Source: Bacteroidia bacterium
Lineage (GTDB): Bacteria; Bacteroidota; Bacteroidia; JANWVE01
Direction: 5' to 3'
Assembly (NCBI GenBank): GCA_025056095.1
Contig: JANWVW010000008.1
Coordinates: forward strand, 1 to 32,723
Length of the DNA stretch: 32,723 nucleotides
This document shows, piece by piece, positions 13,157 to 32,723 of this stretch; within the stretch, counting starts at the first letter, position 1; every line of letters starts with the position of its first letter. The translations under genes were made by a program, and so were the position numbers. A model generated the notes under the pieces. The model saw nothing but the letters and a program-made list of their open reading frames with translations. It did no database searches and was not told where the DNA came from.

Positions 13157-13229
13157 TGGTAATGGAGGGAATCGAACCCCCGACACAAGGATTTTCAGTC
13201 CTTTGCTCTACCAACTGAGCTACATTACC
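13157..13229 (-). tRNA. tRNA-Phe (GAA)
   Basis: A 73-base cloverleaf on the minus strand. The 7-bp acceptor stem is GGTAATG/CATTACC with A as discriminator; D-arm GCTCAGTTGGTAGAGC; the anticodon loop CTGAAAA carries GAA, which decodes Phe codons; the T arm contains GGTTCGATTCC. CCA is not encoded. A complete promoter lies 20 bases upstream, and a shared terminator follows at 13127-13152. Confidence 0.97.
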
Positions 13230-13280: not shown

Positions 13281-13455
13281 GGGGATTTTTAATTTCTTTT
13301 TAACATAAAAACGTTTTGCCGTTTTCTATTGGATTAAAGTTGGTTTTGCCACAACATGTTACACTTTTATGTCTTTCTCTCTCAAACGTTTTATTTTATT
13401 TAAGTGCCGCATAAAGCCTATTTTTCTTTTGTAAAAACGATATTTTAATTTTTTT

Positions 13456-13585
13456 GGGCGTGCCCTTGCCCACACTTCGCTGCGCTTGTGTGGGCAAGGT
13501 CGGCGTGCTACGGGCTACGCTATCGCTTCGGTGCTTCGCTGCGCTTCGCACTGGGCTATCGCCCACCCTCCGCATGCCTCACGCA
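13456..13585 (+). repeat. GC-rich repeat arm, copy B
   Basis: Left end of the Rpn unit. GGGCGTGC is followed by a 12-bp stem (CCTTGCCCACAC, GTGTGGGCAAGG) whose inner sequence differs from the other copies yet is fully paired, then TCGG, the TATCGCTTCGGTGCTTCGC tract, a small GGGC-TATC-GCCC hairpin (13553-13564), and CCTCACGCA. Confidence 0.9.
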
Positions 13586-13693
13586 GAAAGAACATACTAA
13601 ACGCATTTATCCAAAGTTTAACCTTTTACATACCTGATAATCAAATTAAAACAAGGTAAAACGCGCTATAAACTAAAATTAAGCTCTTCTGTT

Positions 13694-13701
13694 TATTTTT
13701 G
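13694..13701 (+). promoter_or_regulatory. -7 box abutting the Rpn-family gene
   Basis: TATTTTTG ends 4 bases before the ATG at 13706, as for several host genes. No -33 box is clear. It predicts a leaderless mRNA. Confidence 0.45.
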
Positions 13702-13705
13702 TACC

Positions 13706-14689
13706 ATGATAAAAATTGCCAATCCTGCGTATGACGTTGTATTCAAGTATTTGATGGAAGATAACAAAATTGCCAAGCTACTTTTATCGGATTTATTGCA
13801 GGAAGAGATTATTGAACTTGAAGTCAGACCGCAGGAATACATAATGGATGTTATTTCCATGACTGTGTATCGCATAGATTTTAATGCTAAAATAAAGAAC
13901 GCCGATGGCACAGAAAAAGTAGTCTTAATAGAAGTACAAAAAGCTAAATTTCCTACGGATATTTTACGGTTTAGGCGGTATTTAGCAGAACAGTACAGGG
14001 CAGAACAAAACTTGATGAGAACAGAAAAAGATAGGTTCAAAGCTTTACCGATTATTAGGGTATATTTTTTAGGTTATCCCTTGTCAAGCAATCCACCGTA
14101 TCCTGTAATCCGCGTACGCAGGAGTGTTACGGATAACAGCACGCAGGAAGTCATTGACATAAAAGATGAGTTTATTGAGTCTTTGACACATGATTGTGTG
14201 ATAGTACAGATACCGAAGTTAAAAGAGACACGGCGAAATGAGTTAGAGATGATATTGTCTTTGCTTGATGAGCAGGAGTATAAGTATGAGATTAGTATCA
14301 ATGAGGAGGATTATCCTGAGCGGTATCGTGAGGTAATAAGGCGGTTGTTGAAGGCAGCTGCGTCGGAGGAGGTAAGGAAGAGCATGGAGATAGAGGATGA
14401 GATAATAGAGAGTTTTAAGATGGTAGAACGAGATAAAGAGAAATTAGCAGAGGAATTAAAGTGGGAAAAACAACGTGCAGAACAAGAAAAACAACGCGCA
14501 GAACAACAAAAACAACGCGCAGAGCAAAAAGAAAAAGAACTAGAGCAAGAAAAGCAACGCGCAGAACAGTTAGAGCAAGATAAAATCAATATGATAAAGG
14601 AGATGCTCAAACAAGGTATATCCAAAGAGGTAGTCATGCAGATTGCCAAAGTAGACGAAGTATTTTTAAGAAAACATAATTTGATGTGA
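13706..14689 (+). CDS. Rpn-family PD-(D/E)XK nuclease / putative transposase
   Basis: A 327-residue protein of the Rpn (recombination-promoting nuclease, formerly transposase_31/PD-(D/E)XK transposase) type. The opening NPAYDVVFKYLMEDNKIAKLLLSDLL is typical, and the nuclease core is visible as YRIDFNAKI (Asp) followed by VVLIEVQKAKFPTDILRFRRY (the E-x-Q variant). Residues about 253-287 are heptads of EKQRAEQ type, predicted coiled coil, and the end (MIKEMLKQGISKEVVMQIAKVDEVFL) resembles the small helical tail of this family. Known Rpn proteins promote RecA-independent recombination and cleave DNA. It is the sole cargo of the inverted-repeat unit 13456-14942 and has its own -7 box; no stop or frameshift is seen. 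Confidence 0.88.
   Translation: MIKIANPAYDVVFKYLMEDNKIAKLLLSDLLQEEIIELEVRPQEYIMDVISMTVYRIDFNAKIKNADGTEKVVLIEVQKAKFPTDILRFRRYLAEQYRAEQNLMRTEKDRFKALPIIRVYFLGYPLSSNPPYPVIRVRRSVTDNSTQEVIDIKDEFIESLTHDCVIVQIPKLKETRRNELEMILSLLDEQEYKYEISINEEDYPERYREVIRRLLKAAASEEVRKSMEIEDEIIESFKMVERDKEKLAEELKWEKQRAEQEKQRAEQQKQRAEQKEKELEQEKQRAEQLEQDKINMIKEMLKQGISKEVVMQIAKVDEVFLRKHNLM
14465..14569 (+). repeat. 21-base tandem repeat in the Rpn-family gene
   Basis: Five consecutive 21-base units code the heptads EKQRAEQ, EKQRAEQ, QKQRAEQ, KEKELEQ and EKQRAEQ. The period equals one coiled-coil heptad, so copy-number change would keep both reading frame and coiled-coil register. Confidence 0.85.
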
Positions 14690-14824
14690 GTTAGAATATC
14701 ATTTAACTTTGTAAATATCTGAAAATAAGCGCAAAATAAGCTAAAAGGTTTTGTTTTACTTTATTTAGGCAAGAAATAAAGCAAAGAATATACATAAAAT
14801 GAAATAAAACATAAAAATACTGTT

Positions 14825-14942
14825 TGCGTGAGGCATGCGAAGGGCGTGCGTTAGCACGGTGCGGAGCGAAGCGAAGCACCGAAGCGTTAGCGTAGCCCGT
14901 AGCACGCCGACCTTGTGGGCTTTTGCCCACAAGGGCACGCCC
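14825..14942 (-). repeat. GC-rich repeat arm, copy C
   Basis: Right end of the Rpn unit, inverted relative to copy B. Read on the plus strand it runs TGCGTGAGG ... CCGA, a 10-bp hairpin CCTTGTGGGC-TTTT-GCCCACAAGG with only a 4-base loop, then GCACGCCC and A8. The inner small hairpin is CGTGC-GTTA-GCACG (14845-14858), another paired variant of the GGGC/GCCC stem in copies A and B. Confidence 0.9.
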
Positions 14943-14962
14943 AAAAAAAATTAAAACTTATA

Positions 14963-15746
14963 TTAAGTGTAATAATTAAGTTCACAAACTTTTTTGAGTT
15001 CGTCGTTAGGTTTAAGGAAGTGAGAGAACATTTTCCAAAACAGTATTTTTCTTTCGTGCAGGATTTGAATATAACGGTTATGTTTAATTTTTTTACGCAT
15101 GTACCACCAAGCCCTTTATGGGATTGGGTCAGGAGAATAAAGAGGTAAAAAAGAAATTCTATTCTTTATTGCGTTTTAACCATACTTGTACTTTTTTAGC
15201 CCGATGATACCTCACATTATCCAATACCTTTACCATCTTTCTGTCTTTGCGATAAACTTTGAGTACCCTTTAAGGTGGCTGATAAAAGTATCGGCATTTC
15301 CTGTCTTTTGAAAATGTACAGCTATTTGCCCTGTTAAATCCCTCTCACTTTCTGATACAAAAATCCCAGCCTCTTTATATACATCTGTGCATTCTTGTAA
15401 TACACATTATACTTGTTTTACATAGGACCTGTCCAAGTCCCGTGGCTATACCCATCGAACTTTCTCTTAACACGTCTTTTATTTTCTTCTTCTGCTCTTT
15501 ACTTAAACGCCTTGCTCTGACTTTGCGCTTCTTGTCTTTCTGCACCTGCTTCTACAAAATGCTTTACCCACAACGTAATAGACTTCAAACTTACCCCATA
15601 AAAGTTTGATAAGTAACAACTGCTATATCTTCCTGTGCTACCGCTTGTAACTTTATCCCAATACGTTTCTTTATTCTCTTTGCGTTAATCAGAAACTCTA
15701 CTCCCGCAAGTTCGTAATTCCCTACTTTTAATACTTTTCTGCCCAT
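14963..15746 (-). pseudogene. Degraded IS630-family transposase
   Basis: No long frame survives, but pieces of one IS630-type transposase follow in order on the minus strand. The N terminus starts at the ATG at 15746 (MGRKVLKVGNYELAG..., stopped after about 50 codons). Next come an HTH-like piece (GVSLKSITLWVKHFVEAG), RRLSKEQKKKIKDVLRESS, GYSHGTWTGPM, the DDE-region LDNVRYHRAKKVQVWLKRN, and the tail RAWWYMRKKIKHNRYIQIL then HERKILFWKMFSHFLKPND, ending at a TAA at 14963. Several frameshifts and stops separate the pieces; the usual PIE catalytic motif reads NPIK. At about 780 bases it is shorter than an intact gene of about 1 kb, so there are deletions too. It ends 20 bases from repeat copy C. 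No terminal repeats were identified. Confidence 0.85.
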
Positions 15747-15865
15747 AATTACTCCGCTATATTAACAAATAGAAAATAGACTTAATAATTTAATGCATTC
15801 ATTTTTTATACTTGTAACTTTTTGCTTAATTTGTTGTTTAGTACAAATAAGGTACTTCATGCACT

Positions 15866-24212: not shown

Positions 24213-24318
24213 GGGCGTGCCCTTGTGGGCATTTCGCTTGCGCTCATGCCCACAAGGTCGGCGTGCTACGGGCTATGTGCGAAATGCCCCGACCCTTGCG
24301 TTAGCAAGGGGCACGCCC
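24213..24318 (+). repeat. Palindromic GC-rich repeat, copy D (short form)
   Basis: A complete 106-base unit that splits exactly into pairing parts: GGGCGTGC; stem CCTTGTGGGC with a 17-base loop and GCCCACAAGG; TCGG with a 27-base arm and CCGA; stem CCCTTGC, loop GTTA, GCAAGGG; and GCACGCCC. T7 precedes and A6 follows. It lies between the convergent fusA and GNAT genes. Apart from small changes it is the same unit as copy E in the opposite orientation. Confidence 0.92.
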
Positions 24319-28481: not shown

Positions 28482-28586
28482 GGGCGTGCCCCTTGCTAAC
28501 GCAAGGGTCGGGGCATTCCGCACATAGCCCGAAGCACGCCGACCTTGTGGGCATGAGCGAAGCGAAACGCCCACAAGGGCACGCCC
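28482..28586 (-). repeat. Palindromic GC-rich repeat, copy E (short form)
   Basis: A complete 105-base unit, inverted relative to copy D: GGGCGTGC; CCCTTGC-TAAC-GCAAGGG; TCGG with a 27-base arm and CCGA; CCTTGTGGGC with a 16-base loop and GCCCACAAGG; GCACGCCC. T7 precedes and A5 follows. It lies between the convergent tsaD and UPRTase genes, ending only 9 bases from the latter's stop. Confidence 0.92.
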
Positions 28587-32640: not shown

Positions 32641-32723
32641 GGGCGTGCCCTTGTGGGCGTTTCGCTTCGCTCATGCCCACAAGGTCGGCGTGCTTCGGGC
32701 TACGCTATCGCTTCGGTGCTTCG
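32641..32723 (+). repeat. GC-rich repeat, copy F (cut by the window end)
   Basis: T7, then GGGCGTGC, the CCTTGTGGGC/GCCCACAAGG hairpin with a 16-base loop, TCGG and the CTACGCTATCGCTTCGGTGC tract that marks the long form as in copy A. The window ends inside it, so cargo and right end cannot be seen. Confidence 0.88.

Follow-up and report, generated by a model that had tools for sequence, protein, structure and literature searches.

In REPIN/RAYT systems, inverted pairs and solo copies of hairpin repeats lie between genes, leave no target-site duplication, and accompany a repeat-flanked gene for a Y1 HuH nuclease. Miniature inverted-repeat elements (MITEs) and their parent insertion sequences have inverted ends, shared junctions, and deletion derivatives that far outnumber the gene-bearing copies. 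By standard logic, the short copies descend from gene-bearing parents, as MITEs descend from autonomous elements. IS200/IS605 elements have subterminal hairpins, a T-rich site beside one side of the end, and no target-site duplication, a feature that some other families of transposable elements also lack. Rpn genes have long carried the label "putative transposase", and the C-terminal part of E. coli Rpn proteins is a hypervariable, separately translated antitoxin. In Bacteroidetes, members of TnpA-REP subclass 2.6 are described as bordered by "atypical secondary structures" that recur elsewhere in the genome (PMC6006769). E. coli RpnA, a DNA endonuclease, leaves a 3'-OH, and its overproduction promotes RecA-independent recombination (PMC5350276). 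Zhong et al. (2023) described Rpn as a non-specific nuclease and phage-defence toxin, reported that rpn genes have no inverted terminal repeats or duplications, judged a transposase role "highly unlikely", and proposed instead that the genes hitch-hike with mobile elements (PMC10327210).

The window analysed here, a stretch of 32,723 nucleotides, belongs to the 3.05-Mb genome of a Bacteroidia bacterium (G000), which we compared with two congeners, G001 (a sister species) and G002. G000 and G001 are related hot-spring bacteria. The samples comprised 414 kb of G000 (14%), 244 kb of G001 (8%, with Rpn loci guiding part of the choice), and 697 kb of G002 (24%); all three genomes are drafts whose contigs tend to break at these repeats, and they are the only ones of their order in the collection. 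Positions 13456-14942 of the window form a discrete element in which two full-length inverted structured modules enclose one intact Rpn-family gene. The original prediction had placed a single such gene between inverted ends that read GGGCGTGC-hairpin-TCGG and CCGA-hairpin-GCACGCCC; both ends were recovered exactly, and the repeat proved longer than described, extending inward to CCGCATGCCTCACGCA. Gene-less copies with the same ends, which had also been predicted, occur elsewhere in the window. The features are as follows.

13449-13455, plus strand: T-run adjoining the left end
13456-13585, plus strand: left inverted module, type 1, 130 bp (GGGCGTGC, hairpin CCTTGCCCACAC...GTGTGGGCAAGG, TCGG, inner helices, CCGCATGCCTCACGCA)
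13456-13463: left outermost end, GGGCGTGC
13464-13499: left hairpin, 36 nt
13500-13503: TCGG of the left end
13706-14689, plus strand: gene for a predicted Rpn-family PD-(D/E)XK nuclease, 327 amino acids
14825-14942, minus strand: right inverted module, type 1, 118 bp (GGGCGTGC, hairpin CCTTGTGGGC/GCCCACAAGG, TCGG ... CTCACGC)
14907-14910: CCGA of the right end
14911-14934: right hairpin, 24 nt
14935-14942: right outermost end, GCACGCCC
14943-14950, plus strand: A-run adjoining the right end, mirroring the left T-run
1414-1759: gene-less family member, 346 bp, with two full modules and a middle of ~107 bp
24213-24318: minimal member, 106 bp, with the outer parts of two modules only and a four-way-junction fold
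28482-28586: minimal member, 105 bp, in the opposite orientation
32641-32723, plus strand: module interrupted by the contig end

Modules are ~110-130 bp long, have CTCACGCA at their inner boundary, and exist in two types. Across the genome, the variable letters of their short GCT-N(1-2)-CG loops differ between copies (T, A, G, AT, AA, GA, TG), whereas the stems stay constant; an example is 13500-13585 of the window. Beside the right end, the minus strand of 14960-15800 contains an apparent remnant of a transposase-like gene. A tRNA gene lies 200-300 bp from Rpn elements both in the window (tRNA-Phe, 13157-13229) and in G001 (a different tRNA, L169:665-738), which may be a coincidence.

The encoded protein has the D..ExQ(K) PD-(D/E)XK active site of the Rpn family, and its match to TIGR01784 is sub-threshold (E = 1.2e-6; 28.6 bits against a cut-off of 52.1). 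D58, E76, Q78, and K79, which are catalytic by motif, are invariant across 40 homologues; the first three correspond by motif to D63, E82, and Q84 of RpnA. Like the E. coli genes rpnA-E (YhgA-like, COG5464, TIGR01784), the genes described here are multicopy. AlphaFold gave a confident model (pLDDT 86.9) of the protein, which contains a long C-terminal coiled coil. A Pfam search of the protein matched no family, and the PDB offered nothing significant by either fold or sequence, the best fold match being Avs3 (E = 0.02). Two other Rpn genes (L114:5011-6063 and L116:7887-8864) share 56-74% DNA identity with the window copy over most of their length and 81-84% near the 3'/C-terminal end, as if this region had been exchanged.

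Among the described systems, the element most resembles REPIN/RAYT pairs or MITE families in the way it works, but it lacks the enzyme that defines REPIN/RAYT. The inverted hairpin-repeat pairs, solo copies, intergenic location, and repeat-flanked nuclease gene recall REPIN/RAYT; the gene here, however, is a multicopy gene for a predicted PD-(D/E)XK rather than a Y1 HuH nuclease, and the repeats are modules of ~120-130 bp whose inner part also folds as a domain. A Y1/RAYT origin was rejected: Y1_Tnp (PF01797) was found in 0/3 genomes of the genus, and no module was matched at 11 Y1 loci from other Bacteroidia that carry the module. The hairpins, T-rich site, and lack of target-site duplication are common to IS200/IS605, but here one end is the inverted repeat of the other, and neither TnpA nor TnpB was found inside the elements. 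Unlike MITEs and their parents, these elements have folded modules as ends, produce no target-site duplication, and contain no DDE or serine transposase. Finally, their inverted ends make them an exception to the reported lack of terminal repeats at rpn genes, which reopens the judgement on a transposase role (PMC10327210). Searches of plasmid and phage collections for the element gave no match, and a literature search for the repeat found no description.

The search for such ends that the original prediction called for returned 173+188 exact matches to GGGCGTGC-N(5,30)-TCGG in G000 (about 360 ends), far more than expected by chance, compared with 1 for a reversed control pattern. Profile scans of the samples detected 102 modules in G000, 155 in G001, and 13 in G002. 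Facing module pairs of less than 2.5 kb numbered 36 in G000 (36/36) and 60 in G001; none was wider, and in G000 their spacings were clustered. Pair sizes in G000 are discrete (~106, ~347, and 1301-1500 bp), and those in G001 are mostly 540-620 bp (the ~600-bp class). Every tested pair is intergenic, as are the inverted hairpin pairs of REPINs, and terminal inverted repeats bound each copy, as they do in transposable elements and MITEs. The two modules around the window gene are both complete and face each other, as in nearly all pairs, which speaks against their separate arrival. The 13 modules of G002 are all solo, and most of them lie 11-68 bp downstream of the stop codon of a co-oriented gene.

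Modules at 25 (G000) and 63 (G001) per 100 kb are dense enough that two independent insertions might be imagined to have flanked Rpn by chance. Yet a correctly oriented module lies at each visible end of all 23 Rpn copies or fragments examined, 13 in G000 and 10 in G001 (a count that excludes four G001 contigs carrying Rpn fragments), with only a weak or partial module at two G000 fragments. The chance of both ends per Rpn gene is about 0.004 in G000 and 0.02 in G001, and ordinary genes are not enclosed. Chance flanking is thus extremely improbable, and we discarded it on these counts. The framed Rpn proteins of G000 and G001 include some that are only ~40% identical. In these two species, Rpn is very probably carried as an internal gene by a mobile element. 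The expectation that Rpn always sits between such ends held throughout the G000 and G001 copies examined but failed elsewhere: 0/10 Rpn loci are framed in G002, even though Rpn genes and solo modules are both present, and 45 Rpn loci outside the genus have no such ends and no inverted repeats above mismatched controls.

The middles found in the 347-bp and ~600-bp classes resemble untranslated stretches of gene-bearing copies over 29-218 bp at 80-97% identity, and those of Rpn elements in particular over 75-218 bp at 80-95%; the short copies consequently look like amplified deletion derivatives. One internal architecture is common to all 17 mid-size copies (17/17); of the 14 minimal copies, about 10 share a single junction, and some minimal copies are identical. 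Within-class identity has a median of 90.5% for the 347-bp class, reaches 100% among minimal copies, and is 82% in the G001 class. Given this shared arrangement, each short form (106, 347, or ~600 bp) appears to have arisen by internal deletion and then multiplied as a unit. All that the minimal copies retain of each end is GGGCGTGC, the hairpin, and TCGG; these three may well be the parts of the end that are recognised.

Of 80 elements, 96-100% have TTTT ahead of GGGCG, and the AAAA that follows the element is nearly invariant. In the same 80 elements, direct repeats at the two sides were no longer than in shuffled pairs, which provides no sign of target-site duplication, and an inverted target was not in excess over shuffled pairs. 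The proposed comparison of empty and filled sites could be made at one site, which is filled in G000 (L105:886-990) and empty in G002 (L226); the two species are ~80% identical and the boundaries are blurred. Synteny among the congeners is poor, and this was the only empty site found in total. At the site orthologous to the window Rpn element, the tRNA-Phe flank is rearranged in the congeners, and G001:C29 has a different tRNA. From the copy patterns and this single blurred site, we infer that the family has moved.

The original prediction held that the two ends fold together into a four-way junction. The 106-bp copy folds precisely in this way (z -5.1), but covariation instead supports a fold in which a single module, whether paired or solo, closes on itself through the helix GCGTG/CACGC. 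The conserved fold is therefore independent of a partner end, and end-to-end pairing into a junction is possible. In a 26-pair model of the single module, 96% of cells are paired and 12 pairs have changed on both sides; its covariation is 0.326, compared with 0.158 after shuffling and at most 0.087 when the model is slid. Helix 3 contains a conserved G-T pair. With a covariance model, 9 further genomes among 247 of the class proved to contain solo modules of diverged sequence (E 1e-6 to 1e-11). These modules, from other Bacteroidia families, are ~90-165 bp long, take the form TTT-GGGCGTG...GGTCGGGC...CCCTCACGC (L271-L290), and are intergenic, often immediately downstream of a gene. Where checked, they are not beside Rpn, except for one Rpn fragment ~4 kb away. 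At the Rfam gathering threshold the window yielded one tRNA only and 13 other module loci yielded nothing. The covarying module appears to be a conserved element of several Bacteroidia families, with no Rfam match in the searched loci.

Such conservation across families, the strong covariation, the G-T pair in helix 3, and the G002 solo copies shortly past stop codons would all suit a module that selection keeps mainly for its function as a structured RNA or 3'-end element rather than as a mobile end, its pairing being a by-product of duplication. This explanation fits poorly with hundreds of copies that share deletion junctions, with module densities that differ between congeners (2 to 63 per 100 kb), with the site that is empty in G002, and with the negative Rfam searches, and we regard it as quite improbable. 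Taken together, the paired inverted ends, fixed size classes, common junctions, and conserved module fold with compensatory changes point, at the level of sequence, to a mobile-element family.

In 658 kb of G000 and G001, there are ten facing pairs with more than 500 bp between their modules. Eight contain Rpn (one as a tandem pair), one contains an AAA-ATPase_like/PDDEXK_9 gene (PF09820, PF08011; AAA-PDDEXK_9), and one contains another ORF; a recognised transposase was found in none of the ten. The third type of ORF encodes an EPD...FEIQK motif and a coiled coil. Its assignment as a PD-(D/E)XK protein was dropped, since it had the motif alone and profile comparison was not significant. PDDEXK_9 copies carry a module at every visible end in 12/15 cases, on one side only in 1/15, and at neither in 2/15. 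AAA-PDDEXK_9 genes at G000:C3:11651-13354 (L237) and G000:C219 (L247) have no modules in their own genome, which indicates that this family also exists outside the element. The candidate mobile system of the original prediction is thus upheld insofar as Rpn lies inside a discrete, multiplied element family, but the ends are not Rpn-specific because AAA-PDDEXK_9 genes use the same ones.

The sharing of one chassis by different nuclease families, the mixture of module types (t1/t1 and t1/t2), and the tandem Rpn pair would be expected if modules and gene-less elements came first and nuclease genes entered later, by homologous exchange or homing-like break-and-copy through shared modules and untranslated regions. 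The Rpn 3' regions, with ~81-84% DNA identity against ~56-74% elsewhere in the gene, fit this order of events as well. We nevertheless consider it improbable: no gene-bearing copy seen in G000 has a mid-size middle cleanly split on both sides, and the mid-size middles of G001 resemble products of gene deletion.

The reading we favour, with a probability of roughly 0.42, is a mobile-element family whose PD-(D/E)XK nuclease is itself the mobiliser. The nuclease is a candidate motor because short copies derive from gene-bearing parents and the genus has no Y1 transposase. Long members carry a PD-(D/E)XK gene, usually Rpn, between ends flanked by TTTT and AAAA. Each end (hairpin 1 with GGGCGTGC and TCGG) would be recognised folded or single-stranded, the encoded nuclease would make the cut and act in trans on short copies, and host replication or repair would complete the process. 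It is tempting to go further and picture autonomous elements whose sole enzyme, Rpn or AAA-PDDEXK_9, acts on the folded ends and mobilises hundreds of short copies in trans; this stricter version is rather unlikely.

Scarcely less probable than a nuclease motor is an unlinked enzyme that moves the element in trans, with Rpn and AAA-PDDEXK_9 as defence or toxin cargo between the modules. One chassis common to two unrelated PD-(D/E)XK families, the spread of modules in other Bacteroidia with no linked Rpn, and the hitch-hiking and phage defence proposed for rpn genes (PMC10327210) all accord with cargo. Against it, facing ends in the 658-kb sample enclose no other identified gene type, short copies derive from nuclease-bearing ones in MITE-like fashion, and Y1 transposases are lacking in the genus. 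We give the motor reading a slight preference and hold the two nearly level because the shared ends, the unlinked Rpn genes and modules of G002, and the conclusions of Zhong et al. weigh against a motor.

With every examined Rpn copy of G000 and G001 set between inverted ends that are folded and conserved, and with short copies derived from such elements, the long-standing transposase question becomes testable. If the nuclease is indeed the motor, PD-(D/E)XK enzymes would join the candidate motors of short repeats in bacterial genomes; otherwise, the elements would exemplify how defence nucleases hitch-hike. The ~600-bp middles of G001 (for example, L145:12244-12857) also contain tandem-like imperfect palindromes of ~45 nt (AACCTTGTAAGTACTTGAAAATGAATRTTAAACAAGGTAAAA). 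Palindromes of the AACCTTGTAAGTACTTGAAAATGAATRTTAAACAAGGTAAAA type are found around Rpn as well and are candidate binding sites.
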